64,000 bases of DNA, taken from contig JBFLXL010000003.1 of assembly GCA_040757205.1 (NCBI GenBank), positions 62,001 through 126,000 on the forward strand, in the 5' to 3' direction. Below are positions 8,209 through 55,877 of the stretch, piece after piece. Under the pieces are notes generated by a model. It saw only the letters and a list, made by a program, of their open reading frames with translations, was not told the origin of the DNA and made no database searches. A program made the position numbers and the translations under genes. The DNA comes from Bacillota bacterium (GTDB lineage: Bacteria > Bacillota > Desulfotomaculia > Desulfotomaculales > Desulforudaceae). Each line of letters starts with the position of its first letter. Positions within the stretch are counted from its first letter, which is position 1.

Positions 8209-8952
8209 TCATTTCCTGCGGTTCCCGCGCGGGCCGAAGCCGGCGGCGGCCATTCTGCGGCGGACGTAAGCCAGTTGGAGCTGCAGGGGCAGGTCTTTAG
8301 GGCAGTTGTCTTCGCAGCCCATGAGGCCCATGCAGCCGAAGATACCGTCCTCGGAACCCAGCACCTCGAAGTACTGCGCTGCGCTGCGCTCGTCCCGCGG
8401 GTCCAGCATGAAGCGGGCCAGGCGGTTGATGCCCGCGGCCCCGATGAAACCCGGCTGAATGTGAACCTTGGCGCAAGCCGCAAGGCAGCAGCCGCACTCG
8501 ATGCACCGTTCGGCCTCGTAAATCTGCAGCGCCGTCTCGTTGTCCATGCGCTCCTCCGGGGCGCTTGACTCAAAGGCCCGGGAGGTGTGCAGCCAGGCCC
8601 CGGTTTTCAGGGTAACGTGCCGGAACCACCCCCCTGTATCCACAGACAGATCCCCGACGAGCCGGAAGACGGGCAGCGGGTACAGCGTGATCCGGTCGGG
8701 CAGCCGGCCGGTGAAAGTCTTGCAGGCCAACCGGGGCCGCCCGTTGATCAGCATGCCGCAGGAACCGCAGAGCGCCATCCGGCAGACAAAGTCGAACATC
8801 AGGGAGGGGTCCTGTTCTTCCCGGATCCTGGTGAGCGCCGCATAGATGTTCATTCCCGGCGTTTCACGCAAGTGAAAGGTCTGCATCCGGGGCTCCGTTC
8901 CGGCTGTAGACGGATGGTAGCGGAAGATGTCGAAAGTCAGGCGGCGACCCAT
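8209..8952 (-). CDS. frdB: Fumarate reductase / succinate dehydrogenase iron-sulfur subunit
   Basis: 247-aa electron-transfer subunit with three clusters: [2Fe-2S] (Cys in CRMALCGSCGML and RLAC), [4Fe-4S] (CIECGCCLAAC) and [3Fe-4S]/[4Fe-4S] region (CMGLMGCEDNCPKDLP). ATG at 8952 has AAGGAGG upstream. It is the last gene of frdC-frdA-frdB, the order of the Wolinella-type (single cytochrome b subunit) complexes. Direction of catalysis cannot be read from sequence; in sulfate reducers these enzymes often work as succinate dehydrogenase with menaquinone. Confidence 0.95.
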   Translation of the reverse strand: MGRRLTFDIFRYHPSTAGTEPRMQTFHLRETPGMNIYAALTRIREEQDPSLMFDFVCRMALCGSCGMLINGRPRLACKTFTGRLPDRITLYPLPVFRLVGDLSVDTGGWFRHVTLKTGAWLHTSRAFESSAPEERMDNETALQIYEAERCIECGCCLAACAKVHIQPGFIGAAGINRLARFMLDPRDERSAAQYFEVLGSEDGIFGCMGLMGCEDNCPKDLPLQLQLAYVRRRMAAAGFGPRGNRRK

Positions 8953-8978
8953 ACCTTATCCTCCTTGACCTTGACCGG

Positions 8979-10763
8979 CTAGGCCGGGGTGGCGCGTTTT
9001 CCGGGAGTCAGTTCGGTGATCCGCACCGGTTCGTATTTGAGCACAGGCTTCTCGGCTCCGGGCGGCCAGTAGGCCAGCGTGCGGTTCAGCCAGTTGACGT
9101 CGTCCCGGTTGGGATAGTCCTCACGATAGTGCGTACCCCGGCTTTCGGTTCGGGCCAGCGCGCCGCAGGCGATGCACAGGGCCAGGCGGACCATGCCCGG
9201 CAGCCGCATGGCGGCGCCCAGCTCCGGGTCGGCGCCGCGGCCGCTGGAAACCAACCCGACCCGCTGCGCCCGCTGGTGCAACTCTCCCAGTGCGGCCACC
9301 GCCGTCTTCAACCCGGAGCCGGTCCGGAATATACCTGTATGTTCCGTTAAGATTTGCCCCATTTGTTTCTTGAGGGCATAGACGTTTTCGCCGCCGTTTT
9401 GGCCCGCGATGAGGCGCCGGACGCGGTCTTCCTGGGCCGCCAGGTGTTGGGCGACCAGGGCGCTCGAGTAGTGGAGAGCCTCTCCGAGGGCGAACTCGGC
9501 GGCCTTTTTCCCGACGGCCATGCCGGCCACGATGGTTTCGGCCAGGGAATTGCCGCCCAGGCGGTTGAACCCGTGCAGATCCCAGCACGCCGCCTCGCCC
9601 ACGGCAAAAAGCCCTTTTAAGCCGTAGGCCGCCCCGTCGATGTTTGTCCTCACCCCGCCCATGACGTAATGCTGGACGGAGCGCACCGGAATCAGTTCCC
9701 GGGCGGGATCGATTCCCGCGAAGTCCCGGCAGAACGCCGCCAGGCTCCGGAGCTGCCGTGCGATGTGTTCCGCCCCCAGATGGCGCACGTCCAGCCAAAG
9801 GTGCGGGCCGTGGGGGCTTTCCACTCCCAGGCCGGCGCGGATGCGTTCCTGCATAAGGCGGGCCGTTACGTCCCGGTACGGTTGCTTGTTGTTCTCCGGC
9901 TGGTAGTGGGGCATGAAGTAGTCCAGGTTGCGGTCCAGCAAATAGCCGCCTCCCTCGCTGACCGGAATCCAGGTTGGCGGCAGCGTCTGGGGATGAAACT
10001 GCACGGCCTCCATGTTGCCCAAACAGGCCAGCCCGGTGTCCAGGGCCAGGGAAAGACCCGTCCCCTCGTTGATCACGGAGTTGGTGGACAAGCCGTAGAG
10101 GCGTCCGCAGCCGCCGGTGGCGATGACGACGGCTTTGGCCAGGTAGGCCCGGAGCTCCCCGGTGCGCAGGCACCGGGCGACGGCGCCGAGGCATTTTTCG
10201 CCGTCACGGATGAGCGCGACTGCTTCCGTGCGGTCGTGAACGGTGATGCCCAAACTGAGCACCATCCCGTCCAGGGCGTACTGCAGGGCGTGCCCGGTAC
10301 CGTCGGCGGCGTAGCAGGTGCGCCACTTGGTGGTGCCGCCGAACTTTTTGGCGTTGATCAGCCCGGCGGCGGCTTCCGGCTCCTCGACCACGGTAAGGTC
10401 GGGCAGGCGGCGCTCGCCGGCCGTAATGCGGCTCCACGGCACGCCCCAGCGCGCCATCTGGCGCACGGCCGCCGGTGCGGTGTTCACGAACAGGCGGACC
10501 ACGTGCTGATCGCAGCCCCAGTCGGCCCCCATCACGGTGTCCGCGAAGTGAAGGTCCGGGCTGTCTCCCTGGCTCATGACGGAGTTCCCCAGGGCGGCCT
10601 GCAGCCCGCCCTGCGCCACCGTGCTGTGGGAGCGCCTGGGCGGCACCAGGCTGAGGATGACCACCTCCAGTCCCCGGGCGGCGGCCTCAATGGCCGTGCG
10701 TTCGCCCGCCAACCCGGCCCCCAGGACCAGGACGTCGGTGATGTGGGTGCGGCCGGCGCTCAC
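8979..10763 (-). CDS. frdA: Fumarate reductase / succinate dehydrogenase flavoprotein subunit
   Basis: 594-aa catalytic subunit that interconverts fumarate and succinate. The N-terminal dinucleotide fold (VLVLGAGLAGERTAIEAA) is followed by the covalent FAD histidine in RRSHSTVAQGG, the substrate motif AVQFHPQTLPP, and the late FAD contact FNRLGGNSLAETIVAG. The GTG at 10763 overlaps the frdC stop (GTGA), giving translational coupling; the longer open frame upstream is frdC shadow. frdB follows after 26 nt. The C-terminal GTHYREDYPNRDD is the usual capping-domain segment. Confidence 0.95.
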   Translation of the reverse strand: MSAGRTHITDVLVLGAGLAGERTAIEAAARGLEVVILSLVPPRRSHSTVAQGGLQAALGNSVMSQGDSPDLHFADTVMGADWGCDQHVVRLFVNTAPAAVRQMARWGVPWSRITAGERRLPDLTVVEEPEAAAGLINAKKFGGTTKWRTCYAADGTGHALQYALDGMVLSLGITVHDRTEAVALIRDGEKCLGAVARCLRTGELRAYLAKAVVIATGGCGRLYGLSTNSVINEGTGLSLALDTGLACLGNMEAVQFHPQTLPPTWIPVSEGGGYLLDRNLDYFMPHYQPENNKQPYRDVTARLMQERIRAGLGVESPHGPHLWLDVRHLGAEHIARQLRSLAAFCRDFAGIDPARELIPVRSVQHYVMGGVRTNIDGAAYGLKGLFAVGEAACWDLHGFNRLGGNSLAETIVAGMAVGKKAAEFALGEALHYSSALVAQHLAAQEDRVRRLIAGQNGGENVYALKKQMGQILTEHTGIFRTGSGLKTAVAALGELHQRAQRVGLVSSGRGADPELGAAMRLPGMVRLALCIACGALARTESRGTHYREDYPNRDDVNWLNRTLAYWPPGAEKPVLKYEPVRITELTPGKRATPA

Positions 10764-11398
10764 CGGACGCCTCCCAGATGGAGAAGCGCCCACAAAGCCG
10801 CCAGGTTCACCGACAGGATGAAGACCGCGGCTGTGCCCACGGCGTACGCCAGGGACCGGCGCCGGAACCGGGCCCACTTGACCAGCAGGCGGTAGATGCC
10901 GGCGGCGGCGTGGTATTCCGCGACCAGCAACAGGATGAGGTAGAAGACCAAATAGTCCGTCTGGACGCGCAGGGCGCTCTTCGCCGCCTGGAGGGGCCAG
11001 TCGGCCAGCACGACCCAGAGGTGGACGGCGGCCGCAACGAGAATGACCGGTCCGGTGACCGCCTGGAAGGCCCAGACATAGGTATCGGTGTGCCGCATCC
11101 TTCCGGCCGTCCGCCACACCGCACGCTGTTCCCGGTAACCGGTCGGAATCCGGCGGGCCACGCTAGCCACGTGGACCAGGCCGATCAAGAGACCCAAGCC
11201 GATGCCCGCGTAAGAAAGGTAATGCTTTTCGAGGAACCGGGCCGTGCCGTCGAAGGCGGCGGGGCCGAAAACGACAATGGCCACCAGAAACGCGTGAATC
11301 CACAGGAAGGCCACCAGCAGGATACCGGTGACCAGCCCGGCAGCTTCCAGGTACAGGTCGGTCCTGGGACTATGGCCCGGGACTTTCGCGTTTTTCAT
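10760..11398 (-). CDS. frdC: Fumarate reductase / succinate dehydrogenase cytochrome b subunit
   Basis: 212-aa membrane anchor with five hydrophobic helices. Histidines placed within or next to the helices (IHAFLVAI, LVHVASV, RHTDTYVW, AAVHLWVV, AEYHAAAG) match the diheme type B cytochrome of Wolinella and Bacillus complexes. ATG at 11398. First gene of the frdCAB operon; about 250 nt of repeats separate it from the fumarase beta gene upstream. It transfers electrons between menaquinone and the iron-sulfur subunit. Confidence 0.9.
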   Translation of the reverse strand: MKNAKVPGHSPRTDLYLEAAGLVTGILLVAFLWIHAFLVAIVVFGPAAFDGTARFLEKHYLSYAGIGLGLLIGLVHVASVARRIPTGYREQRAVWRTAGRMRHTDTYVWAFQAVTGPVILVAAAVHLWVVLADWPLQAAKSALRVQTDYLVFYLILLLVAEYHAAAGIYRLLVKWARFRRRSLAYAVGTAAVFILSVNLAALWALLHLGGVR

Positions 11399-39607: not shown

Positions 39608-41533
39608 TTGAAGAGGAACGTTTATTTGTCTGAGCGGCCGCTGGAGGAGGCGCGGCAGGAGTACCTGGCCTTTCTGGCCGCCGCGGGGGCGCTGGCGCCC
39701 GGTCCCCCGGAGGAGGTCCCGGTCATCGGGGCGGCCGGCCGGGTGACGGCCGCGCCGGTGTTCGCCGCCGTCTCCTCGCCCCACTTCCACGCCGCGGCGA
39801 TGGACGGGCTGGCGGTGCGTGCCCGGGACACATTTGGAGCGGCTGAAATCTCCCCCCTGACGCTACGGGTGCCGGACCAGGCCCAAGTGGTGGATACCGG
39901 GGACCCGCTACCCGAAGGCGCGGACGCGGTGATCATGATCGAGGACGTGCATCAGACGGCGGACGATGCCTTTGAGATCACCGCGGCCGCCCCCCCCTGG
40001 CAGCACGTAAGGATGATCGGCGAGGACCTGGTGGCGACCGAAATGATCATCCCGGCGAACCACGTGGTGCGGCCGGTGGACATCGGCGGGCTGCTGGCCG
40101 GCGGGGTGACGCGCCTCCAGGTGCACTCCCGCCCCCGGGTCGCTTTCATTCCGACCGGGACCGAGGTCGTCGAGCCGGGCGGTCCCTTGCGCCGGGGGAA
40201 CATCGTCGAATACAACAGCCGCGTCCTGGGGGCGCTGGTCCAGGAATGGGGGGCGGACTTCGTGCGGCACGACATCGTGCCGGACGAGTACGACCGCCTG
40301 CGGGCGGCGCTTGAGCAGGCAACCGCCGCGGCGGACGTCGTGGTCATCAACGCCGGCGCTTCGGCCGGGCGGGAGGACTTCAGCGCCGCCCTGATCGGTG
40401 AACTCGGGCGGGTCGTTACCCACGGGGTGGCGATCAAGCCGGGTAAACCGGTGATCCTGGGCCTGATCCAGGGTAAACCGGTGTTGGGCATCCCCGGGTA
40501 CCCGGTCTCGGCGGTTCTAAACGCCGAGCTTTTCCTGCGCCCGGTGGTCTACGCCCGGCTCGGGCGGGTGGTGCCCCCCCGCCGCCGCGTTTCCGCGCTG
40601 CTCTCCCGCCGCGTCGTCTCCCCCATGGGGGTGGACGAGTTCGTGCGGGTGAAGCTCGGCCGGGTGGGCGATAAGGTCGTCTGCACGCCCCTCGGGCGCG
40701 GGGCCGGCCTGATCCTGACCCTGATTCGCGCCGACGGCCTGCTGGTGGTGCCCCGCTTCAACGAGGGCTTCGAGGCCGGCCAGACGGTGGAGGTCGAACT
40801 TTTGCGGCCGCTTTCCGAGATCGACGAAACCGCGGTGGTCATCGGCAGCCACGACATCGCCCTGGACGTGCTGGCCAACCACCTGAAGGTAAAGTACCCC
40901 GGCGCCGGGCTTTCCTCGGCGCACGTCGGGAGCCTCGGGGGGCTTTTGGCGCTACGGCGCGGCGAGGCTCATCTGGCGGGCACCCACCTCTTGGACGAGG
41001 CCACCGGGGAGTACAACGTTTCCTACATCCAAAAGCACCTGCCCGGGCACGGGGCGGTCCTTCTGAACCTGGCCTACCGGGAGCAGGGTTTCATCACCGC
41101 CCCCGGCAATCCCGACCGCATCACCGGCTTCGAGGATCTGGCGCGGGAGGAAATCCGGTTCGTGAACCGGCAGCGCGGGGCCGGCACCCGGGTGCTCCTG
41201 GACTACCACCTCCGGCTGGCCGGGATCAGGCCCGAACAGGTGGACGGGTACGGGCGCGAGGAGTACACCCACATGGCGGTAGCCGCCGCCGTGGCGAGCG
41301 GGACGGCGGACTGCGGCCTGGGGATCCGCGCCGCGGCCTCGGCCCTGGGGCTGGGTTTTGTGCCGGTGGCCGAGGAGCGTTATGACTTGTGCATTTTGAA
41401 GGAATACTGGGACAAACCGCTCGTGCGGCGCCTGCTGAACGTGGTCGACGACCCGGGCTTCCGGGCGGCCGTGCAGGCCCTGGGCGGGTATGATTTGCGC
41501 GACTGCGGCCGGATAATGTGGGAGCAGGAATAG
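39608..41533 (+). CDS. MoeA fused to a substrate-binding (PBP-like) domain
   Basis: 641 aa. The N-terminal 405 residues form a second MoeA domain (AAMDGLAVRARD, DPLPEGADAVIMIE, INAGASAGREDF, GIPGYPVSAVLN). The C-terminal 230 residues are a periplasmic-binding-protein-like domain (VIGSHDIALDVLANHLK, then RGAGTRVLLDYHL, VASGTADCGLGIRAAA), as in proteins annotated MoeA/LysR substrate-binding. That domain may sense molybdate, tungstate or cofactor. TTG/GTG-type start at 39608 with GGGAGGGTGA upstream. Confidence 0.92.
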   Translation: MKRNVYLSERPLEEARQEYLAFLAAAGALAPGPPEEVPVIGAAGRVTAAPVFAAVSSPHFHAAAMDGLAVRARDTFGAAEISPLTLRVPDQAQVVDTGDPLPEGADAVIMIEDVHQTADDAFEITAAAPPWQHVRMIGEDLVATEMIIPANHVVRPVDIGGLLAGGVTRLQVHSRPRVAFIPTGTEVVEPGGPLRRGNIVEYNSRVLGALVQEWGADFVRHDIVPDEYDRLRAALEQATAAADVVVINAGASAGREDFSAALIGELGRVVTHGVAIKPGKPVILGLIQGKPVLGIPGYPVSAVLNAELFLRPVVYARLGRVVPPRRRVSALLSRRVVSPMGVDEFVRVKLGRVGDKVVCTPLGRGAGLILTLIRADGLLVVPRFNEGFEAGQTVEVELLRPLSEIDETAVVIGSHDIALDVLANHLKVKYPGAGLSSAHVGSLGGLLALRRGEAHLAGTHLLDEATGEYNVSYIQKHLPGHGAVLLNLAYREQGFITAPGNPDRITGFEDLAREEIRFVNRQRGAGTRVLLDYHLRLAGIRPEQVDGYGREEYTHMAVAAAVASGTADCGLGIRAAASALGLGFVPVAEERYDLCILKEYWDKPLVRRLLNVVDDPGFRAAVQALGGYDLRDCGRIMWEQE

Positions 41534-41578
41534 CCCGTCCGGGTGTCGAAATCCAGCGGTAGTATTTTCCGGGGTGGT

Positions 41579-42091
41579 ATGCCGAACATGTCCGGATTCA
41601 CCCACGTCGATGAGCGGGGCAAGGTGAAAATGGTGGAGGTGACCGCGAAACCCGTCACCGTGCGGGAGGCCGTGGCCCGCGGTGCCGTCGGCATGCGCCC
41701 CGACACCTTGCGCTTGATCCTTGATAACCGTGCCGCCAAGGGCGAGGTGCTGGCCGTGGCTCGCACGGCGGGCATCATGGCCGCCAAGGAGACGGCGCGG
41801 CTCATTCCCCTCTGCCATCCGCTGCTCCTGACGGTGGCGGAGGTGGACTTCCGGGCCGATACGGAGCGCTCACGCCTGGAGATCGAATCACGGGTGAAAA
41901 CGGCCGGGCCGACCGGGGTGGAGATGGAAGCAATGACGGCCGTGGCGGTGGCCGCGCTGACCGTGTACGACATGTGCAAGGCGGCCGACCGGGAGATGGT
42001 GATCGGGGAGATCAGGCTCGTCGTCAAATCCGGGGGCAAGAGCGGCCGGTTTGACAGGGAGGGGGAAGCACCGTGGCCGGAAAGGTTGTAG
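41579..42091 (+). CDS. moaC: MoaC cyclic pyranopterin monophosphate synthase
   Basis: About 170 aa. Motifs: FTHVDERGKVKMVEVT near the start, KETARLIPLCHPL, EIESRVKTAGPTGVEMEAMT and VYDMCKA (active-site Lys/Asp region). It forms cPMP from the MoaA product. ATG at 41579 follows GGGGTGG; ATG at 41588 is possible. It overlaps the MOSC gene by 19 nt. No moaA, moaD or moaE is present in the window. Confidence 0.95.
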   Translation: MPNMSGFTHVDERGKVKMVEVTAKPVTVREAVARGAVGMRPDTLRLILDNRAAKGEVLAVARTAGIMAAKETARLIPLCHPLLLTVAEVDFRADTERSRLEIESRVKTAGPTGVEMEAMTAVAVAALTVYDMCKAADREMVIGEIRLVVKSGGKSGRFDREGEAPWPERL

Positions 42092-42516
42092 CGGTTTGCA
42101 CCAGCGAAGTGAAGGGCGTGCGCAAGGATAACGTCGAGCGCGCCTACCTGCAGGAAGGAGTGGGCCTCGTCGGGGATGCCCACGCCGGCCCCTGGCACCG
42201 CCAGGTGAGCCTTTTGGCGGTCGAAAGCATCACCCGGATGCGGGAAAAAGGCCTGGAAGTCGGGCCCGGAGATTTTGCCGAGAACCTGACCACCGAGGGG
42301 ATCGAACTGCACAGCCTGCCCATGGGCACCCGGCTCCGGATCGGACCGGATGTCCAGGGAGAGGTTTCTCAGATCGGAAAGAAGTGCCACGTGGGCTGTG
42401 CCGTCTTCCAGCAGGTGGGGGACTGCATCATGCCCCGGGAGGGCATTTTTGTGAAGGTAGTGAAAAGCGGTTATGTCCGGGTCGGGGACGCAATCGAGGT
42501 GCTGAACGGTGTTTAG
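42073..42516 (+). CDS. MOSC-domain protein
   Basis: 147 aa, MOSC fold (MAGKVVAVCTSEVKGVRKDN, GLVGDAHAGPWHRQVSLLA, FAENLTTEGIEL, a conserved cysteine in GKKCHVGC). The MOSC family binds molybdopterin cofactors and shuttles sulfur. GTG start inside the moaC end; overlaps the mog gene by 8 nt. Tight overlaps suggest translational coupling. Confidence 0.9.
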   Translation: MAGKVVAVCTSEVKGVRKDNVERAYLQEGVGLVGDAHAGPWHRQVSLLAVESITRMREKGLEVGPGDFAENLTTEGIELHSLPMGTRLRIGPDVQGEVSQIGKKCHVGCAVFQQVGDCIMPREGIFVKVVKSGYVRVGDAIEVLNGV

Positions 42517-42997
42517 GGTGGCCGTCGTCACGGCGAGCGACAAGGGTTCCCGGGGAGAGCGGGAAGACGAGAGCGGGCGCGTCATTGAGGATATTATCGT
42601 CACCCTGGGCTGGGAATTGGTCGGTACCCGCATCGTTTCGGACGACATCGAAGTGATCATCGAGACTCTGGTCGAACTGTGTGACGACCGGGCCGACCTG
42701 GTGCTCACCACCGGCGGCACCGGGTTCGCGCTGCGCGACAATACCCCGGAGGCGACCCTGGCCGTGGTTGAGCGCCAAGTGCCCGGCCTGGCCGAGGCGA
42801 TGCGCGCCGAGACCGGCAAGAGGACGCCCCGGGCGATCCTGAGCCGGGGGGTGGCCGGAATCAGGAAGCGGACGCTGATCGTAAACCTGCCCGGAAGCCC
42901 GAAGGCGGTGCGGGAGTGCCTGGAGGCCATTCTCCCGGCCCTGCCGCACGGGCTGGAGGTTCTGACCGGCCGGGCCCGGGACTGCGCCCGGAAGTGA
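42509..42997 (+). CDS. mog: MogA/MoaB molybdopterin adenylyltransferase
   Basis: 162 aa. Motifs: VAVVTASDKGSRGEREDESG, LVLTTGGTGFALRDNTPEAT (the MoaB/Mog signature TTGGTG), and LPGSPKAVRECL. It adenylates molybdopterin before metal insertion by MoeA. GTG start overlapping the MOSC gene. Last gene of the cofactor cluster. Confidence 0.94.
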   Translation: MFRVAVVTASDKGSRGEREDESGRVIEDIIVTLGWELVGTRIVSDDIEVIIETLVELCDDRADLVLTTGGTGFALRDNTPEATLAVVERQVPGLAEAMRAETGKRTPRAILSRGVAGIRKRTLIVNLPGSPKAVRECLEAILPALPHGLEVLTGRARDCARK

Positions 42998-44218: not shown

Positions 44219-45994
44219 GTGGCACGCGAGCGAGTTTACATCGACGCCGACGTTTTGATCATCGGCGGCGGCACGGCTGGTTGCCTGGCCGCCTGGGAGG
44301 CACGTCAGTCCGGTGGGGAGAACCTGAAGATCGTGATCCTGGAAAAGGCCTTCATCCGTAACAGCGGCGCCCTTTCCGCCGGGATGAACGCGCTCAACAT
44401 GTACGTAAACCAGGGTAAACCCGAAGACCTGGTGGCCTACATCCGCTATGACGTGTGCGGCGCGCCGGTGCGCGAAGACATCCTGCTCGGCGTTGCCGGG
44501 CTGGTCAACGAGACGGTGGCCATGATGGAAAAAGAGGGGCTGCCGATCAAGAAAAAGGCCGACGGCAGCTACCTGAACCGCGGCAAGTGGAACATCGAAA
44601 TCAACGGATCGCTTTTAAAACCGATCACCGCCAACATGGCCATGAAAGCGCGGGCCAAAGTCTACAACCGGGTTTACGTGACCGACCTGATCACGGTGGA
44701 CGGCCGCGTGGCCGGGTGTGTCGGCTTCGGCGTCCGGGACGGCAAGTACTACGTGGCCCGGGGCAAAACCGTGCTGGTCTGCGCCGGCGGGGCCGCCGGC
44801 CTCTGGCGCCCCCGCGGCCAGGGAGACGCCCACCACCGCATCTGGTACTACCCGTTCAACACCGGTGGGTCCTATGCCATGTGCAAGCGGGCCGGGGCCA
44901 AGATGGTCGGGTTTGACAGCCGTTTCGTGCCGGTCCGGACCAAGGACACCTACGCCGCGACCGGGGCCATGTCCATCGGGATGTGGGCGCCGATGATCAA
45001 TGCCAAGGGCGAGGCTTTCATGCGCGAGCGCGAGGAATACGTGAAGCTCGGCGGCCACACCGCCCCCACCCCGATCCGGGTGCTGGCGTACTGCCGGGAG
45101 ATGCAGAACAACCGCGGCCCCTGCTACATGGACACCACCAGGGGAGACCCGCAGCGGGTGGAGGGTCTAAAATCCCAATATCTGGACATGTCCCCCATCC
45201 TCGTGCTCTATTGGGGCTGCAACGACATCAACCCCAGCCGGGAGCCGGTGGAGATCGACGCCGACAACCCGTCGATCGTCGGGGCGAACGCGGCCTTTGC
45301 CGGGGCCTGGACGCTCGGCACCTCCCGGATGACCACGGTGGAGCGCCTGTTCGTGTCGGGAGACGCGCTGGGTGCCGCGCCGTCACGCTTCATTTCCGGG
45401 AGCTGGACTTGCGGCCGTCTGGCTGGACGCAGCATGGTCGGCCACATCAAGGAAAAGCGGCCCGAACTCCTGGAGCTTGACCCCGCGGTGCTTTCGGACC
45501 TGGAAAGAAAGATTTTCGCGCCCTTGGAGCGGTACGAGAAGTGCAGTTTCTTCACCAGCGGGGACCCGGTGGAAGGCGTGTTCCCCAACCAGATGGAGTG
45601 GCGGATGCAGCACATTATGGAGGAGTATTGCGGCGGCCGTTCCCGGTGGTTCTACGTGAACGAAACCAACCTGGGCATCGCCCGCAAGCTGATCAACCGG
45701 ATGCGGCGGGAACAGTTGGCCTACCTGGTGGCGAAAGACATGCACCAGCTGCAGCTCGCCTGGGACGTAATCAACCGGCTGGACGTCTGCCAACTGGTGA
45801 TCGACCATATCGACCACCGGAAGGAGACCCGCTACCCTGGTTACGTCAACCGGACGGACTACCCCGAGGTGAACGACGCCAATTTCGACTGCTTCGTCAC
45901 CTCGCTCTGGGATGCGGAGAAGGACGAATTGACCTTTGACAAGGAGCCCTACGAGCAGATCATTCCCGGCGACCGCAAGGCCCAGACCATATGA
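44219..45994 (+). CDS. Divergent AprA-like flavoprotein
   Basis: 591-aa flavoprotein of the AprA/fumarate reductase superfamily with FAD fold (ADVLIIGGGTAGCLAAWEAR), similar along its length to the canonical AprA at 48524 (WYYPFNTGGSYAMCKRAGAK; RFVPVRTKDTYAATGA; MTTVERLFVSGDALG; CGRLAGRS; ETRYPGYVNRTDYP). Aligned by eye to AprA, the Trp and Arg of the active-site region are kept, but the His-Ser-Gly segment near AprA His398 reads GANAAFAGAW, and the NGESYK segment reads NGSLLK. It is thus probably not a normal APS reductase. Followed by an AprB-like ferredoxin; order A-B is opposite to canonical B-A. GTG start with AAGGAGGG upstream. Confidence 0.85.
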   Translation: MARERVYIDADVLIIGGGTAGCLAAWEARQSGGENLKIVILEKAFIRNSGALSAGMNALNMYVNQGKPEDLVAYIRYDVCGAPVREDILLGVAGLVNETVAMMEKEGLPIKKKADGSYLNRGKWNIEINGSLLKPITANMAMKARAKVYNRVYVTDLITVDGRVAGCVGFGVRDGKYYVARGKTVLVCAGGAAGLWRPRGQGDAHHRIWYYPFNTGGSYAMCKRAGAKMVGFDSRFVPVRTKDTYAATGAMSIGMWAPMINAKGEAFMREREEYVKLGGHTAPTPIRVLAYCREMQNNRGPCYMDTTRGDPQRVEGLKSQYLDMSPILVLYWGCNDINPSREPVEIDADNPSIVGANAAFAGAWTLGTSRMTTVERLFVSGDALGAAPSRFISGSWTCGRLAGRSMVGHIKEKRPELLELDPAVLSDLERKIFAPLERYEKCSFFTSGDPVEGVFPNQMEWRMQHIMEEYCGGRSRWFYVNETNLGIARKLINRMRREQLAYLVAKDMHQLQLAWDVINRLDVCQLVIDHIDHRKETRYPGYVNRTDYPEVNDANFDCFVTSLWDAEKDELTFDKEPYEQIIPGDRKAQTI

Positions 45995-46112
45995 CCGCGA
46001 GACCGCGAAAAACAAGCATGGCTTGATGCGGCGAAGCCTGACAAAGCCAAGCGCGAGTTTTTTGCAACGGTCTCACCGGCAGCTTTGAATACCGAGAGGA
46101 GGTACCAAACCA

Positions 46113-46457
46113 ATGCCGCCGTATGTTATTCCCGACCAGTGCGACGGGTGCCAGGGCGAGCGGGAACCGCTCTGCGAGCTGGTCTGCCCGGGCAACCTGA
46201 TGGTGATTGAAGAACCCACCGGTAAGGCGGTTTGCCGGGATGTGGGCGACTGCTGGGACTGCATGACCTGCACCAAGTATTGTCCGCGGCAGGCGATCCA
46301 GACCAGGATTCAGTACCAGTTGGCCTTTGTCCCCGGGAAACTCGTCCCCGTCGTCGGCCCGCACAGTGTCACCTGGACCCTGATCGATTGCCACGGCCAC
46401 GTGGAACGCTTCATTATGCGGACCCTGTCCGGGGACGACGAGGAAGAAGATTTGTAG
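46113..46457 (+). CDS. AprB-like ferredoxin subunit, short C-terminus
   Basis: 114 aa with eight cluster cysteines: CDGCQGEREPLCELVCPGN and CWDCMTCTKYCPRQAI, matching AprB. The canonical AprB (48035) has 146 aa; this paralogue lacks about 30 C-terminal residues (the tail that wraps AprA in solved AprAB). Ribosome site GAGGAGG precedes the ATG at 46113. Presumably the electron-transfer partner of the AprA-like protein. A TGGCT/AGCCA pair and six T's lie between the two genes. Confidence 0.88.
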   Translation: MPPYVIPDQCDGCQGEREPLCELVCPGNLMVIEEPTGKAVCRDVGDCWDCMTCTKYCPRQAIQTRIQYQLAFVPGKLVPVVGPHSVTWTLIDCHGHVERFIMRTLSGDDEEEDL

Positions 46458-48034: not shown

Positions 48035-48475
48035 ATGCCGACATTTGTAATGACCGAGAAGTGCGACGGCTGCAAGGGGCAGGACAAAACCGCGTGCATG
48101 TACATTTGCCCCAACGACCTGATGGTCTTGGACAAGGAAAAGATGAAGGCCCACAACCGGGCTCCGGACGAGTGCTGGGAGTGCCTCTGCTGTGTCAAGA
48201 TCTGCCCGCAGCAGGCGATGGACATGCGGGGTTACGCCGACTTTGTCCCGATGGGCGCGGCTTGCGTGCCGCTCAGAGGTTCACAGGACATCATGTGGAC
48301 CGTTAAGTTTCGGAACGGCGACATCAAGCGCTTCAAGTTCCCCATCCGGACCACCGATGAAGGCATGGCGGCACCCGATGGCGGATACGGCGCGGGCACG
48401 GACGATATCGCCGACGTGGTCCATCTGTTCACCGAGCCGGCTTCGCTGGGCGTGGCTGTACCCACCCCTAAGTAA
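48035..48475 (+). CDS. aprB: APS reductase beta subunit
   Basis: 146-aa two-[4Fe-4S] ferredoxin-like subunit: CDGCKGQDKTACMYICPND and CWECLCCVKICPQQAM, followed by a beta segment (IMWTVKFRNGDIKRFKFPIR) and a C-terminal tail. It passes electrons from QmoABC/HdrBC-type donors to AprA. ATG at 48035 has GGGAGG upstream. Order aprB-aprA as in all known operons. Confidence 0.96.
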   Translation: MPTFVMTEKCDGCKGQDKTACMYICPNDLMVLDKEKMKAHNRAPDECWECLCCVKICPQQAMDMRGYADFVPMGAACVPLRGSQDIMWTVKFRNGDIKRFKFPIRTTDEGMAAPDGGYGAGTDDIADVVHLFTEPASLGVAVPTPK

Positions 48476-48523: not shown

Positions 48524-50413
48524 ATGCCGAATTTCGAAACTGTAGAAGTCACCACTGATTTCCTTATCATTGGTGGCGGCATGGCGGCCTGCGGCGCGGC
48601 CGTTGAAGCGGCGCACTGGGCTAAAAAGCACGGCCTGAAAGTCACCGTGGTCGACAAGGCGGCCATGGACCGGAGCGGTGCCGTGGCCCAAGGTCTGTCG
48701 GCCATCAACCTGTATGTCGGCCTGCGCGACAATGAGAACACCGTGATGGACTACGTGGAATACGTCCGGAACGACCTGATGGGCGTCGCCCGCGACGACC
48801 TCGTCTACAACATCGCCCGCCACGTCGACTCCACCGTGCACCTGTTCGAGAAGTGGGGTCTCCCGATCTGGCCGAAAGGCGATGACGACCCCTTCCGGAT
48901 CGGCCCGTACCAGCGGGGCGGCCGCTGGCAGGCCATGATCAACGGTGAGTCCTACAAGATCATCGTGGCCGAAGCCGCGAAGAACGCCCTCGGCGTTGAC
49001 AACATCTACGAGCGCGTGTTCATCGTGGACCCGATCGTGGAAAACAACCGGTTCGTCGGCTGTGTCGGTTTCAGCACCCGCGAGGAGAAGTTCTACGTGT
49101 TCCGCGCGAAGGTAGCCCTGTGTGCGATGGGCGGCTGCGTGGGCGTGTTCCGTCCGCGGTCCTCCGGCGAGGGTCTCGGCCGGTCCTGGTACCCGCCGTT
49201 CTCCACCGGCTCCAGCGCTTACTTCACCATCAAGGCCGGCGCCGAGATGACCTGCCAGGAAGTCCGGTTCATCCCGGTCCGCTTCAAGGACGCCTACGGT
49301 CCGGTCGGCGCGTGGTTCCTGCTCTTCAAGTCCACCGCGACCAACGCCTTCGGCGAAGTGTACATGCAGACCAACGCCCACATTCTCGACAACTGGGGCA
49401 AGTACGGCAAGGTGAAGCCGATCCCGGCCAACCTGCGTAACTACCTCGGCATGATCGATGTCTCGGCCGGCAAGGGCCCGATCTACATGCAGACGGCCGA
49501 CGCCATCAAGCGCCTCGCCGCCAAGTACGAGGGCGACGAGAAGGCCTTCAAGAAGAAGATGAAACACCTCCACGACGAAGCGTGGGAAGACTTCCTCGAC
49601 ATGACCATCTCCCAGGCCCTCCTGTGGGCGGCCTGCAACATCCACCCCGAGCAGAAAGAGTCCGAAATCGCCGCCGCCGAGCCGTACTTCATCGGTTCGC
49701 ACTCCGGTGCCTCCGGCGCCTGGATCAGCGGTCCGGACGACGTGGCGCCGCCGGAATACTTCTGGGGCTACGCCAACCTGACCACGGTCGACGGCCTGTT
49801 CGCCGCCGGTGACGCCTCCGGCGCGTCCAGCCACAAGTTCTCCTCCGGTTCGCACGCGGAAGGCCGTATCGCCGCCAAGGCCGCCTGCAAGTACCTGGTC
49901 GACAAGAACCCCGACCTGCCGGCCCTGGACCCGGCGGTGGTCGAGGCCCTGAAGGCCAAGACCCTGGCTCCGCTCGACCGGTACGTGGAGTTCAAGGACT
50001 TCACCACCGCGCCGGAAGTCAACCCGAACTACATCCTGCCGAAGCAGTACAAGCACCGCATCCAGAAGCTGATGGACGAGTACGCCGGCGGCTGGGGCTC
50101 CAACTTCACCACCAGCAAGATGCTGCTGGAGAAGGGCATGGAGTACCTGCAGATGCTGAAGGAAGACTCCGAGAAGCTCGCGGCCCGCGACCTGAACGAG
50201 CTGATGCGCTGCTGGGAGAACGTCCACCGCACCTGGGTGGCCGAGTCCCACATCCGCACCATCCTGTTCCGCGAAGAGACCCGTTGGCCGGGCTACTACT
50301 TCCGCGCCGACTTCCCGAAGATGGACGACAGCTGGGAAGTCTTCGTGAACTGCAAGTGGGACCCGAACACGGGCGAGTGGGAAGTCTTCAAGAGAGACAT
50401 CATCAAGCTGTAG
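48524..50413 (+). CDS. aprA: APS reductase alpha subunit
   Basis: 629-aa FAD subunit reducing adenylylsulfate to sulfite and AMP. FAD fold DFLIIGGGMAACGAAVEAAH; active-site segments SAINLYVGLRDNE, WYPPFSTGSSAYFTIKAGAE, RFIPVRFKDAYGPVGAW, and GSHSGASGAW (His region). Codons are strongly C-ending, consistent with high expression. ATG at 48524 has GGAGGAGG upstream, 48 nt after aprB, and a terminator follows at 50431. Confidence 0.98.
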   Translation: MPNFETVEVTTDFLIIGGGMAACGAAVEAAHWAKKHGLKVTVVDKAAMDRSGAVAQGLSAINLYVGLRDNENTVMDYVEYVRNDLMGVARDDLVYNIARHVDSTVHLFEKWGLPIWPKGDDDPFRIGPYQRGGRWQAMINGESYKIIVAEAAKNALGVDNIYERVFIVDPIVENNRFVGCVGFSTREEKFYVFRAKVALCAMGGCVGVFRPRSSGEGLGRSWYPPFSTGSSAYFTIKAGAEMTCQEVRFIPVRFKDAYGPVGAWFLLFKSTATNAFGEVYMQTNAHILDNWGKYGKVKPIPANLRNYLGMIDVSAGKGPIYMQTADAIKRLAAKYEGDEKAFKKKMKHLHDEAWEDFLDMTISQALLWAACNIHPEQKESEIAAAEPYFIGSHSGASGAWISGPDDVAPPEYFWGYANLTTVDGLFAAGDASGASSHKFSSGSHAEGRIAAKAACKYLVDKNPDLPALDPAVVEALKAKTLAPLDRYVEFKDFTTAPEVNPNYILPKQYKHRIQKLMDEYAGGWGSNFTTSKMLLEKGMEYLQMLKEDSEKLAARDLNELMRCWENVHRTWVAESHIRTILFREETRWPGYYFRADFPKMDDSWEVFVNCKWDPNTGEWEVFKRDIIKL

Positions 50414-50632: not shown

Positions 50633-51892
50633 ATGGCCAACAAAAGCATCCTGGTTGTCGGGGGAGGGATAAGCGGGCTGACCACGGCCCTGGAAGCGGC
50701 GGAGGTGGGCTGCGAGGTTTACCTCGTGGAGAAGAACCCCTACCTGGGCGGCCGGGTCGCTCAGCTGCACCAGTACTTCCCCAAACTGTGCCCGCCGAAC
50801 TGCGGGCTGGAGATCAACTTCCGGCGCCTGCGCAAGAACCCCAGAATTAAATTCTTCACCTGTGCCGAGGTCGAGAAAATCTCCGGCCGAAAGGGCGACC
50901 TCGACGTCACCGTCAAGCTGAACCCGCGTTACATCAAGGCGGAGTGCACTGCGTGCGGTGAGTGCACGGCGGTCTGCCCGGCCGAGCGGGTAAACGACTT
51001 CAACTACGGCCTGGACACCACCAAGGCGGCCTACCTGCCCCACCCGTTCGCCTTCCCCCTGCGCTACGTCATCGACCGCCGGGCCTGCCCCGACGGCTGC
51101 ACCAAGTGCGTGGAGGCGTGCAAGTACAACGTGGTCGACCTGGCCATGGCCCCCGAAACGGTCAACCTGAAGGTGGGCGCGGTGGTGTACGCCACCGGCT
51201 GGCAGCCGTACGACGCCGCCAAGATCGGCTACTACGGTTTCGGGCGCGCAAAGAACGTCATCACCAACGTCATGCTGGAGCGGTTGGCGGTCCCGAACGG
51301 CCCGACCGAGGGCAGAATCGTCCGCCCGTCCGACGGGAAAGAGCCTCAGACCATCGCCTTTGTGCAGTGTGCCGGCTCGCGGGACGAGAACCACCAGGCC
51401 TACTGTTCCCAGATCTGCTGCCTGGCGACGTTGAAACAAATCACCTATATCCGGGAAAAGAACCCGGACGCCAAGATTTACGTCTTCTACATCGACATCC
51501 GGGCGCTGGGCAAGTACGAGGACTTCTACACCAAGGTGGCCAAGGACGAAAACGTGGTCTTCATCAAGGGCAAAGTCGGTGAGATCACCGCGGACCCGGC
51601 CACCGGAGACCTGACCCTCGAGACCGAGGACCAGGAGGCGGGCAAGACCGTCACCCAGACAGTGAACTTGGTGGTTCTGGCCACCGGTATGAAGCCGTCT
51701 ACTTTGGAAGCCCCGGTCCCCTCGGAACTGGCCGCGGCCGACGCGGGCGGTTTCGTGGTTTCCGACATAGCCGGAACCGGCGTCGGCGGTGCCGGGTGCG
51801 CCCGGAAGCCGATGGAGGTTTCGGCGTCTGTGCGCGACGCCACGGCGGCCGCGCTCAAAGCCATTCAGGCTACGGTGGGGGGTGGCAAGTAG
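50633..51892 (+). CDS. qmoA: Quinone-interacting oxidoreductase subunit A
   Basis: 419-aa HdrA-like flavoprotein. FAD fold MANKSILVVGGGISGLTTAL; an internal ferredoxin cluster (CTACGECTAVCPAERVND; CPDGCTKCVEACKYN); HdrA motif IAFVQCAGSRDENHQAYCSQICC. It channels electrons towards APS reductase. ATG at 50633 preceded by AGGGTGAT. It ends 1 nt before the qmoB start. Confidence 0.95.
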   Translation: MANKSILVVGGGISGLTTALEAAEVGCEVYLVEKNPYLGGRVAQLHQYFPKLCPPNCGLEINFRRLRKNPRIKFFTCAEVEKISGRKGDLDVTVKLNPRYIKAECTACGECTAVCPAERVNDFNYGLDTTKAAYLPHPFAFPLRYVIDRRACPDGCTKCVEACKYNVVDLAMAPETVNLKVGAVVYATGWQPYDAAKIGYYGFGRAKNVITNVMLERLAVPNGPTEGRIVRPSDGKEPQTIAFVQCAGSRDENHQAYCSQICCLATLKQITYIREKNPDAKIYVFYIDIRALGKYEDFYTKVAKDENVVFIKGKVGEITADPATGDLTLETEDQEAGKTVTQTVNLVVLATGMKPSTLEAPVPSELAAADAGGFVVSDIAGTGVGGAGCARKPMEVSASVRDATAAALKAIQATVGGGK

Positions 51893-51893
51893 T

Positions 51894-54098
51894 ATGACCA
51901 AGAAACAAGCCGTATACTTCTGCTCGGGTTGCGGTATCGGCGAGGCCCTGGATCTGGCGGCCCTGACCAAGGTGGCGAACAAGGAGTTCAAGATCCAGGA
52001 CGTAAAGGAGCACCCCTTCCTGTGCGGCCCCGAGGGTGTCGCCCTGATCAAGCAAGACGTCGAGGCGGGATTCAACGCCCTCACCATCGCGGCCTGTTCG
52101 GACCGGGTTTGCTACGACGTGTTCAACTTCGGTCCGGTGATCGTGGAGCGGGTGCCCTTGCGGGAACGGGTCGCCTGGGTGCAGGAGCCCGGTCACGAGG
52201 ACACCAACATGATGGCCGAGGACTACGTACGGATGGGCCTGACCCGGATCAAGGCCGCCGAACTGCCGGAGCCCTATATGGCTGAGAACCCGTCCAAGAC
52301 CATCCTGGTGGTGGGCAGCGGTCTCGCCGGCCTGACGGCCGCGTTGGAGGCGGCCAAAGCCGACTACGACGTGGTGCTGGTGGAGAAGAGCGCGAAGCTT
52401 GGCGGCTGGGCCGGACAGGCTTACAAGATGCCGCCCACGAAGGAGCCGTACACCGACCTCGAGGAAAACCCCGTTCCGGCGCTGGCCAAGGCGTTGGCGG
52501 ACCACCCGAAGGTCAAGGTCTACAAGGATGCCGTCATGGAGCAGATCGCCGGCGGTCCCGGCGTGTTCGACGCCAAGATTAAACAGGGCGGCACCGTGGT
52601 GGAGGAGCGGGTCGGCGCCGTGGTGCTGGCGGCCGGATCCCGGCCGTACGACCCGAAGAAGCTCGACTACCTGGGCTACGGCAAGCCCAACGTGGTCACC
52701 CAGTCCGACGTGGAGGCGCTGGCCGTCAGCGGCGATTTGAAGAACGTGAAGCGCGTGGCCTTCATCCAGTGCGCCGGGTCGCGCGACGCGGACCACCTGC
52801 CGTACTGTTCGGCCGCCTGCTGCGTGGAAACCCTGAAGCAGGCCGCCTACCTTAAGGAGTTCAACCCGGAAGCCCAGGCCTACATCTTCTACAAGGACAT
52901 CCGGGCGACGGGCAAATACGAGTACTTCTACAAGGCCGTCCAGCAGACGGGAGCGGTGTTCATCAAGACCGAAATCCCGGGCGTGGCTGTGAGCGAGGAC
53001 GGCGGCAAGCTGGCGGTGGCCGGTAAGGACCTGATCCTGGGCGAGGAGGTCAAGATCGGCGGCCTCGACCTGGTGGTCCTGGCCAACGGCATGCAGAGCA
53101 ACGCCGGCTTCGGTGAGGAGATCATCGCCCAAGCCGAAGAAGAAGCGGCGGCGGCCAAGGAAGAAGAAGCAGTCAAGACCGACCAGATCATCAAGTCGGG
53201 CCTCCTGAACCTGGCCTACCGCCAGGGTCCGGAGATGCCGGCGTTAAAGTACGGTTTCCCGGACTCGCACTTCATCTGCTTCCCGTACGAGACCCGCCGG
53301 ACCGGCATCTACGCCGCCGGCACCGTCCGGGCGACCATGCAGATCCCGACCGCCATCGAGGACGGCACCGGCGCGGCCCTAAAGGCCATCCAGTGCGTGG
53401 AGGCCGTGATCCGGGGCGAGGCGGTCCACCCGAGAGCCGGGGACACCTCCTATCCGGAGTTCTTCATGCAGCGCTGCACCCAGTGCAAGCGGTGCACCGA
53501 GGAGTGCCCGTTCGGGGCGATCAACGAGGACGAGAAGGCCAACCCGCTGCCCGAGCGGACCCGCTGCCGGCGGTGCGGCACCTGTATGGGCGCCTGCCCC
53601 GAGCGGATCGTCTCCTTTAAGGACTTCTCGGTGCCCATGATCGGCGGCATGGGCAAGTCGATCGAGGTTCCGGAAGAAGACGAGGAAAAACCGAGAATTC
53701 TTATCTACGCCTGCGAGAACGACGCCATCCCGGCGCTCGACATGGCGGGCGTCAGCCGCCTGCGGTTCGCTCCCTGGGTGCGTGTCATTCCGCTCCGGTG
53801 TCTCGGTTCGCTGAACCTGGTCTGGATCTCCGACGCCATGTCGGGGGGCTTTGACGGCGTGATGCTGCTGGGCTGCAGACACGGTGACGAGTACCAGTGC
53901 CACTTCGTCAAGGGCAGTGAACTCGCCGAGATCCGCCTGTCCAAGGTTGCGGAGACCCTGGACCGGCTGGGCCTTGAGTCCGAACGCTGCCGCATGCACC
54001 AGATCAGCATTATGGACTACTTCCGGATCCCGCAGCTCCTCGAGGACTTCATGAAGCGGCTCGACGAGCTCGGTCCGAACCCGATGAAGGGCTTCTAG
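51894..54098 (+). CDS. qmoB: Quinone-interacting oxidoreductase subunit B
   Basis: 734 aa. N-terminal cysteine-containing domain (YFCSGCGIGEALD), FAD fold (SKTILVVGSGLAGLTAAL), HdrA motif IQCAGSRDADHLPYCSAACC, ferredoxin clusters RCTQCKRCTEECPFGA and RCRRCGTCMGACPE, and an MvhD-like C-terminus (LLGCRHGDEYQCHFVKG). ATG at 51894 directly follows the qmoA stop. Partner of QmoA in the electron path to AprBA. Confidence 0.96.
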   Translation: MTKKQAVYFCSGCGIGEALDLAALTKVANKEFKIQDVKEHPFLCGPEGVALIKQDVEAGFNALTIAACSDRVCYDVFNFGPVIVERVPLRERVAWVQEPGHEDTNMMAEDYVRMGLTRIKAAELPEPYMAENPSKTILVVGSGLAGLTAALEAAKADYDVVLVEKSAKLGGWAGQAYKMPPTKEPYTDLEENPVPALAKALADHPKVKVYKDAVMEQIAGGPGVFDAKIKQGGTVVEERVGAVVLAAGSRPYDPKKLDYLGYGKPNVVTQSDVEALAVSGDLKNVKRVAFIQCAGSRDADHLPYCSAACCVETLKQAAYLKEFNPEAQAYIFYKDIRATGKYEYFYKAVQQTGAVFIKTEIPGVAVSEDGGKLAVAGKDLILGEEVKIGGLDLVVLANGMQSNAGFGEEIIAQAEEEAAAAKEEEAVKTDQIIKSGLLNLAYRQGPEMPALKYGFPDSHFICFPYETRRTGIYAAGTVRATMQIPTAIEDGTGAALKAIQCVEAVIRGEAVHPRAGDTSYPEFFMQRCTQCKRCTEECPFGAINEDEKANPLPERTRCRRCGTCMGACPERIVSFKDFSVPMIGGMGKSIEVPEEDEEKPRILIYACENDAIPALDMAGVSRLRFAPWVRVIPLRCLGSLNLVWISDAMSGGFDGVMLLGCRHGDEYQCHFVKGSELAEIRLSKVAETLDRLGLESERCRMHQISIMDYFRIPQLLEDFMKRLDELGPNPMKGF

Positions 54099-54401: not shown

Positions 54402-54989
54402 ATGACCGCCGACAAGGGGACATCAAGGTACGACCCCACCTTTGCGAGAGAGCTTTCCAAGATGGAAAACGGGGAGTACGTCAGCCAGTGCATGCAGTGC
54501 GGTTTGTGCGTGGTGACCTGCCCGGCCCGGCACTTGATGGATCTGCAGCCGCGGAAGTACTTCAAGGCGATCCAGGCCGGCGACAAGGACAAAGTCCTGA
54601 AGGCGAACACGCCGTGGCTGTGTACTTCATGCAACCTGTGCACGGTAAGGTGTCCGCGCGGCATTCCGATCATCGACTTCATGCACGGGATGAAGAAGTA
54701 CCTGGCCGACACCAAGGGCGCCAAGGTTACGCCGGGAGCGCTGTTTTCCAAGACCTTCTTCGACAACATGATTAGCCGCGGCCGCCTGTGGGAGGCCTTC
54801 CTGACCGGGATGTTCTACCTGAAGGCCGGGCCCAAGGCCATGCGCGACGCGATGAAGATGACCGACGTGGCCATACCGATGGTGATGAAAAGGCGCCTGC
54901 CTCCCTTGCCCGGCAAGGCCGTCAAGGGCAAAAAGGATTTGAAGAAGATCTACAAGAAGGCCTCCGCACTGGCGAAGGAGGGACACTAG
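54402..54989 (+). CDS. hdrC: HdrC-like iron-sulfur protein
   Basis: 195 aa with two ferredoxin clusters: CMQCGLCVVTCPARHLMD and CTSCNLCTVRCPRGIPI, then a helical C-terminus (KGKKDLKKIYKKA). It resembles the HdrC subunit of heterodisulfide reductase, and replaces QmoC in Gram-positive sulfate reducers. Its stop overlaps nothing; hdrB starts immediately (1-nt gap). ATG at 54402 after GGAGGGGG. Confidence 0.93.
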   Translation: MTADKGTSRYDPTFARELSKMENGEYVSQCMQCGLCVVTCPARHLMDLQPRKYFKAIQAGDKDKVLKANTPWLCTSCNLCTVRCPRGIPIIDFMHGMKKYLADTKGAKVTPGALFSKTFFDNMISRGRLWEAFLTGMFYLKAGPKAMRDAMKMTDVAIPMVMKRRLPPLPGKAVKGKKDLKKIYKKASALAKEGH

Positions 54990-55877
54990 ATGGCGTACAT
55001 TTACTATCCGGGCTGCGCGTCGGAGGCGACCGGTAAATCCAACCACATTTCGTTCGAGGCGGTGGCGCACGCCCTGGGCCTGGAACTGGCGGGCGAGATT
55101 CCGGACTGGAACTGCTGTGGCGCGACCCTGGTGGCCAACGCCATCGGCGACTTCGCCCAGATGGCGCTGGCGTGCCGCAACCTGGCCCTGGCCGAGAAGA
55201 AGGGGCACGACATCATCGTCGCCTGCAGTTCCTGCTACCTGAACCTGGCGTGGCCGAACGAGTTGATGCGGATCAATCCGGAATTCGGCAAAAAGCTCAA
55301 CGAGGCTTTGGGGGCCGCGAACCTTTCCTACAGCGGCAAGCTGAAGATCAAGCACGTGGTGGACGTGTTGGCCAACGAGATCGGCGTGGAGAGAATCAAA
55401 GAGCGGACCATCAAGCCGTTGAACGGCTTGAAGGTGGCCTGCTACTCCGGCTGTCAGACGGTGCGCGCTCTCCGGCGCCCGGACTTCGACGACGTGGAGT
55501 ACCCGCAGGTGATGGGCCGGATCGTGGAGGCCGTGGGCGCGGAGGCGGTGGACTTCCCGCTGGCCGCCCGGTGCTGCGGCGGTTCGCAGCAGTTCGCCAA
55601 CCCGGAGCTGATCTACGACCTGACCGGCAAGGTGCTGGATTCGGCGGCGGCCGCCGGGGCGGACGTCATCGTCACCACCTGCCCCATGTGCGCCATGAAC
55701 ACTGACGTGTTCCAGGAGAAGATCGGCAAGCTCAACAAAAAGAAATACAAAATGCCGGTCCTGTTCCTGACCCAGCTGATGGGCGTGGCCTTCGACCTGA
55801 AACCGAAAGACCTGGCCTTTGGCTACAACATCGTCTCGCCGTACGGCAAGCTGAAAAAGTACGGGGTCAAAAAGTAA
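54990..55877 (+). CDS. hdrB: HdrB-like CCG-domain protein
   Basis: 295 aa with two CCG domains: CAS...NCCGATL...CSSC and CYSGC...RCCGGSQ...TTCPMC, the pattern for unusual non-cubane [4Fe-4S] clusters of HdrB. Membrane helices are absent, so with HdrC it is soluble, unlike QmoC. Likely site of electron entry from a thiol/disulfide or ferredoxin carrier. ATG at 54990, immediately after hdrC. Confidence 0.93.
   Translation: MAYIYYPGCASEATGKSNHISFEAVAHALGLELAGEIPDWNCCGATLVANAIGDFAQMALACRNLALAEKKGHDIIVACSSCYLNLAWPNELMRINPEFGKKLNEALGAANLSYSGKLKIKHVVDVLANEIGVERIKERTIKPLNGLKVACYSGCQTVRALRRPDFDDVEYPQVMGRIVEAVGAEAVDFPLAARCCGGSQQFANPELIYDLTGKVLDSAAAAGADVIVTTCPMCAMNTDVFQEKIGKLNKKKYKMPVLFLTQLMGVAFDLKPKDLAFGYNIVSPYGKLKKYGVKK

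Follow-up and report, generated by a model that had tools for sequence, protein, structure and literature searches.

The window analysed here is a stretch of 64,000 nt on contig JBFLXL010000003.1 (assembly GCA_040757205.1). It belongs to a 2.03 Mb, Desulforudis-like genome whose host is a deep-subsurface-type sulfate-reducing bacterium. Upstream of the canonical APS reductase genes aprB and aprA, the window carries a second, divergent gene pair, named aprA2 and aprB2 here (Table 1). As the original prediction had stated, both products align with the canonical subunits encoded downstream: in pairwise alignments AprA2 is 34% identical to AprA over 584 columns (E = 2e-103) and AprB2 is 33% identical to AprB over 109 columns (E = 4e-25). 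Curated profile models label the two genes adenylyl-sulfate reductase, though with scores below the curated cut-offs, for AprA2 458 bits against 641.75 with TIGR02061 and 509 against 557 with NF005331, and for AprB2 74.7 bits against 135.65 with TIGR02060.

Table 1 Features of the aprA2-aprB2 locus in window coordinates; residue numbers in brackets refer to A. fulgidus AprA
Feature	Position	Strand	Evidence or remark
aprA2, divergent AprA-like FAD subunit, 591 aa	44219..45994	+	ORF; GTG start; RBS AAGGAGG
Asn60 codon (Asn74, sulfate contact)	44396..44398	+	invariant in all 64 aligned family sequences
Arg121-Gly-Lys-Trp-Asn125 (Glu141..Gln145)	44579..44593	+	R, K, W, N invariant in 16/16 orthologues
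Trp209 codon (Trp234)	44843..44845	+	invariant across all clades
Arg240 codon (Arg265)	44936..44938	+	invariant across all clades
Asn357 codon AAC (His398), lineage-specific His-to-Asn	45287..45289	+	codon comparison with relatives
aprB2, 114 aa, ferredoxin-type subunit with 2x[4Fe-4S], lacking the C-terminal tail of AprB	46113..46457	+	ATG start; RBS GAGGAGG
canonical aprB	48035..48475	+	TIGR02060 196 bits; PF12139 present
canonical aprA	48524..50413	+	TIGR02061 876 bits; within canonical clade
qmoA (50633-51892), qmoB (51894-54098)	50633..54098	+	HdrA-type matches; FlpD domain in the second
hdrC- and hdrB-like genes	54402..55877	+	gene calls; names from sequence reading and position; same clusters after qmoAB in relatives

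AprA2 matches the domains FAD_binding_2 and Succ_DH_flav_C. In AprB2 the cluster cysteines are Cys 10, 13, 21, 25, 47, 50, 53 and 57, and the electron-transfer Trp48 is present; the eight cysteines and the Trp, for which an electron-transfer role has been proposed, are kept in the B subunits of the AprA2 clade (the L062 gene call is truncated at its start). In the domain search PF12139, the AprB tail, found no match in AprB2, while canonical AprB was matched with E = 2.9e-34. Among solved structures, the APS reductase of A. fulgidus and the PAPS reductase (PAPSR) of Methanothermococcus thermolithotrophicus tie as the closest in sequence. An AlphaFold model of AprA2 with an input of 47 diverse sequences reached a pLDDT of 89 (close orthologues alone gave 67) and superimposed on A. 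fulgidus APS reductase (1JNR/2FJA, the latter being the APS complex) with a TM score of 0.93 and 38% identity in the structural alignment, on the PAPS reductase 8A8O with 0.90 and on FrdA with about 0.78. With Asn74, Trp234 and Arg265 in place, eight cluster cysteines, the B-subunit Trp and the AprA fold, AprA2B2 is a member of the AprAB superfamily.

Phylogeny and distribution of the pair

A tree was calculated from 64 AprA-like sequences plus SdhA-type outgroups. Canonical AprA, the AprA2 clade (from here: query clade), a PAPSR clade including the M. thermolithotrophicus enzyme and a clade linked to DASS transporters were each fully supported, and a looser set, termed 2c, was found beside the PAPSR clade. 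The query clade (100/100) joined canonical AprA at 99/94. Moving it to PAPSR plus 2c or to the DASS-linked clade cost approximately 8.6 log units (p-AU 0.033 and 0.034, respectively), and these alternative placements are probably to be rejected, on evidence that is moderate, not overwhelming. The root given by the outgroups is unsure because of long branches. AprA2 is hence a true paralogue that branches outside canonical AprA, as had been predicted, and the tree rules out a recent duplication of the canonical pair.

Gene order and subunit length divide the wider family: all 40 non-canonical AprAB pairs have the order A-B with a B subunit of 91–119 aa, while all 14 canonical pairs are B-A with 145–148 aa. 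The reversed order and the missing B tail had been read as peculiarities of this locus. Both are present, but since they are common to every non-canonical clade, the characterised PAPS reductase included, two of the three original cues belong to the wider family. Of the tail-less family, one enzyme has been characterised, namely the M. thermolithotrophicus PAPS reductase (PMC10322725; PDB 8A8O).

Two further groups of this family were observed. The DASS-linked loci (L039, L042, L043, L044, L051, L117; also L038, L045, L115, L118, L119, L122) combine a CRP-type regulator, a Na_sulph_symp-family transporter, AprA', AprB', an HdrA/FlpD protein and, at some loci, HdrC/HdrB, and lack sat; an AprA homologue of this type is also encoded in genome G039. 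The DASS-linked family likely uses a different substrate, and no description of it was found in the literature searched. The 2c genes occur in other Bacillota (L110-L114, L116, L120) without shared neighbours; some adjoin a gene for a FAD-dependent or a kinase-like protein, and for L113, L114 and L116 no adjacent AprB was called.

Orthologues of AprA2 (64–97% identity) were detected in 22 of 151 genomes, namely the window genome and 21 of its 150 relatives, distributed over five families of one Gram-positive order. Canonical AprA is encoded in all 22, hence aprA2 never occurs alone. Outside this order no match exceeded 48% identity in a phylum-wide sample of 399 genomes, and an exact-pattern scan of 84,980 species genomes, the single survey reaching beyond the phylum, returned only six matches, all in close relatives. 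Branching within the query clade tracks the host families, as would be expected of old vertical inheritance. In the family of the window genome, G004 has no AprA2 match and shows lgt-ylbF-aprBA without the pair, the empty counterpart of the arrangement in the window.

The dN/dS ratios were 0.067 (against G002) and 0.082 (against G006) for AprA2 and 0.105 (against G002) for AprB2. These values point to strong purifying selection on two intact genes; with the intact orthologues, the ratio of 0.067 rules out a pseudogene or decaying duplicate. Between the window and G002, dS was about 0.19 for canonical aprA and aprB, 0.39 for aprA2, 0.37 for aprB2 and 0.28–0.49 for ordinary upstream neighbours. 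Because dS is roughly doubled in aprA2 relative to canonical aprA and resembles that of ordinary neighbours, the protein is probably not highly expressed; the comparison, which bears on expression only indirectly, suggests ordinary levels, below respiratory ones.

Active-site pocket and sulfate activation

Pocket residues were compared among 16 query-clade orthologues using A. fulgidus AprA numbering and the residue roles given in PMC2211403. Asn74, Trp234, Arg265, Arg317, Tyr95, Trp144 and Gly274 are kept in all 16, and Leu278 is replaced by Ile. The retention of Trp234 and of the R-F-x-P-V-R motif (RFVPVR, with Arg265) noted originally was confirmed, as was the alteration of the NGESYK segment, which reads NGSLLK in AprA2. 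Four positions are changed throughout (16/16), Glu141 to Arg, Gln145 to Asn, Phe277 to Ala or Ser and His446 to Ser, and Val273 is never kept (Thr, Ala or Gly). By this comparison, the ribose/phosphate end of the AprA2 channel is remodelled. The catalytic residues of the pocket are conserved as much as the cluster ligands, which makes a purely electron-transfer paralogue, one of the roles originally offered, unlikely.

The replacement of His398 requires a narrower reading. The predicted change of GSHSG to GANAA is real in the window, but as a family trait it is refuted, and His398 loss as the functional key was dropped, since His is present in 14 of the 16 orthologues. The codon is AAC in the window and G002, and CAC or CAT in G001, G006, G007, G005, G003 and G012. 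The Asn is thus confined to two of the three Desulforudis-genus genomes and differs by a single base (AAC for CAC). G001, the sister of the window sequence in the tree and 97% identical to it at the protein level, has CAC, so the Asn arose twice, reverted or was exchanged.

Several features of the pocket and locus recall the M. thermolithotrophicus enzyme and its bacterial relatives, i.e. the A-B order, the tail-less B subunit of about 100 aa, a PAPSR structure among the two best sequence matches with a TM score of 0.90, equivalents of Arg141 and Lys143, and, in the PAPSR clade too, Val273 mostly as Thr and Phe277 as Ala or Ser. Nevertheless, a PAPS reductase is highly improbable here. In MtPAPSR, Lys120, Arg121 and Ser122 (A. 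fulgidus 143–145) bind the 3'-phosphate (PMC10322725). While AprA2 shares the Lys143 equivalent, the PAPSR clade has Arg144 (15/15), Ser in 13 of 15 sequences at position 145 (Ser/Asn) and Lys or Gln at 446, where the query clade has Trp, Asn and Ser, respectively; canonical AprA has Gln145 in 15/15. The two also form separate clades, and the p-AU of the PAPSR plus 2c placement counts against the idea as well.

The genomes point the same way. ATP sulfurylase (Sat) is encoded in all 22 aprA2 carriers. APS kinase is absent in 14 of them, ten of which are at least 97% complete, with the closed genome G002 in this number; the 20–25-bit APS-kinase matches in these 14 are partial, covering a mostly 47-residue, P-loop-type stretch. 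In the window genome nothing beyond such a match of about 20 bits was detected, and in G002 no APS kinase was found. PAPSR-type clusters, in contrast, include genes for sulfite reductase along with cysC and sat. Pocket and missing APS kinase together make PAPS reduction very unlikely for the query clade.

Two Sat genes are present in the window genome, G001, G002 and G007. A second Sat was considered as a marker of the pair and rejected, there being no strict link: G003, G005 and G006 carry the pair without it. In the window genome (L140:5758-9321, G000 contig 12), G002 and G007 (L141, L142), the ATP sulfurylase genes, which differ from each other, are near neighbours, separated by approximately 0.5–1 kb in the window genome and G007 and by approximately 2.5 kb, with one gene between, in G002.

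Neighbourhood, proposed electron partner and function

In 14 of the 22 carriers, canonical aprA is located within 10 kb of the pair. Genomes of family f1 show the order lgt-aprA2B2-ylbF(opposite strand)-aprBA-qmoAB-hdrCB, and those of f5 CxxCxxCC protein-aprA2-aprB2-HdrA/FlpD-sat-aprB-aprA-qmoAB, with a gap of 2 bp between aprB2 and hdrA in L064; the sat gene of G011 (f5) had been split by the gene caller and was recovered by domain search. Other arrangements are aprBA-qmoAB-hdrCB-aprA2B2-Usp-TauE (G012) and aprA2B2-sat (G010), while in f17 the pair is far from apr and sat genes, often after lgt. Several of these arrangements thus link the pair by synteny with sat, aprBA, qmoAB and hdr genes.

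A dedicated HdrA beside the pair occurs only in f5. Aligned along its entire length with the HdrA that neighbours the DASS-linked pair, it shows approximately 41% identity; one type of electron carrier is thus associated with two tail-less AprAB families. A search of the window genome and the f1 genomes for an f5-type HdrA yielded no close orthologue, the best full-length matches in the window genome being shorter HdrA proteins of approximately 36% identity.

We consider the case evenly balanced for AprA2B2 being a second APS-reductase-type enzyme, which forms a separate, anciently diverged clade beside canonical AprBA in one group of Gram-positive sulfate reducers. Its predicted activity is best read as that of a second, low-flux APS reductase whose electron partner is of the HdrA type. 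Electrons would pass from the Hdr-type carrier via the two clusters of AprB2 to the FAD (by analogy to the relatives in PMC2211403 and PMC10322725), whose N5 would attack the sulfur of APS, giving sulfite and AMP, or the reverse. The HdrA/FlpD-type carrier would be encoded in the same operon in f5 and supplied from elsewhere in the other families, and expression of the enzyme would be ordinary, below that of a respiratory protein. What the sequences show or strongly imply is an AprA fold that binds FAD, with two [4Fe-4S] sites and a bridging Trp in the B subunit, the sulfate-holding and adenine-clamp residues and no PAPS signature, maintained by purifying selection and co-located with sulfate-activation genes.

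The structural similarity of the model to 2FJA, the grouping with canonical AprA, the pocket, Sat in all carriers, the absence of APS kinase from most of them, the recurrent linkage and the purifying selection count in favour of this reading. The sulfate-holding residues, the Arg317 adenine clamp, the FAD and the two clusters with their linking Trp are shared with canonical AprBA, the nearest clade, from which AprA2B2 differs by its sub-cut-off scores, its separate clade, A-B order and missing tail, and by the replacement of Glu141, Gln145, Val273, Phe277 and His446. Of these, the changes at Gln145, His446, Phe277 and Val273 would bear on the ribose-phosphate part of APS and are counted against the APS reading, as are the Asn for His398 in the window, the remote position of the pair in f17 and the restriction of a dedicated HdrA to f5.

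The changes at these four positions also speak for a different sulfo- or carboxylate substrate. On that account, which we judge rather unlikely, the remodelled ribose/phosphate end admits a non-APS molecule, as suspected for the DASS-linked clade, whose association with a regulator and a sodium:sulfate/dicarboxylate-family transporter instead of sat indicates that the wider family is functionally diverse. That clade (e.g. L039, L042, L051, G039) shares the tail-less A-B layout with AprA2B2 and, with the f5 pairs, the related HdrA-FlpD protein. It is, however, separate at 100/100 and changes Tyr95, Phe261 and Gly274 (Trp95, Trp261, Asp274 and Asp145 in its own pocket), whereas AprA2B2 keeps the Arg317/Ile278 clamp, Tyr95, Trp144 and Gly274 and has sat and apr/qmo genes as its linked genes, a common transporter or regulator being absent. 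The invariant catalytic set and adenine clamp make a quite different substrate, the other role originally offered, less likely than a second APS-type enzyme. Reduction of a C=C bond by a fumarate-reductase-like AprA2 is hardly credible, since membership of the same superfamily, seen in the FAD_binding_2 and Succ_DH_flav_C matches, is outweighed by the catalytic motifs, on which we reject it: QFHP, HYxMGG and NRLGG of SdhA/FrdA are replaced by RFVP, PSIVGA and -RFIS, and the fold is nearer to AprA than to FrdA.

An enzyme running in the oxidative direction would convert sulfite and AMP to APS and feed Sat for ATP, serving sulfite removal or the disproportionation of sulfur compounds while canonical AprBA reduces. 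The Sat-Apr cascade can run both ways, and a part in disproportionation has been proposed for it (PMC10504309); in addition, a gene of the TauE type (sulfite exporter family) is located downstream of the pair in G012. No tested sequence feature fixes the direction, however, and the characterised tail-less A-B relative was without reverse activity (PMC10322725); we think this alternative quite unlikely.

No function for such a pair and no AprA paralogue of this type was found described in the literature searched, in agreement with the original prediction, and Desulfotomaculum genome papers list a single APS reductase copy (PMC3569383, PMC4148979). The gene aprA serves as a standard marker of sulfate reducers, and in the related genomes examined here the canonical pair is accompanied by a further AprAB class that is conserved. 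Were APS its substrate and an HdrA its partner, the pair would give Gram-positive sulfate reducers, among which QmoC is often missing, a second APS-sulfite route. The query clade is moreover the nearest outgroup to canonical AprA and bears on the origin of dissimilatory APS reductase from the wider tail-less A-B family, which PMC10504309 leaves unanswered. We tentatively entertain, as possible though doubtful, that AprA2B2 is a distinct class of APS enzyme, soluble, HdrA-coupled and possibly working from sulfite to APS, which as the closest living relative of dissimilatory APS reductase would record an intermediate step between the tail-less A-B pairs and the respiratory enzyme.

Elsewhere in the window, genes resembling those of molybdenum cofactor biosynthesis (MoeA-, MoaC-, MOSC- and MogA-like; 39608-42997) lie upstream of lgt and aprA2, a block also seen upstream in several relatives, and an operon at 8209-11398 on the minus strand reads as fumarate reductase/succinate dehydrogenase with iron-sulfur, flavoprotein and cytochrome subunits.
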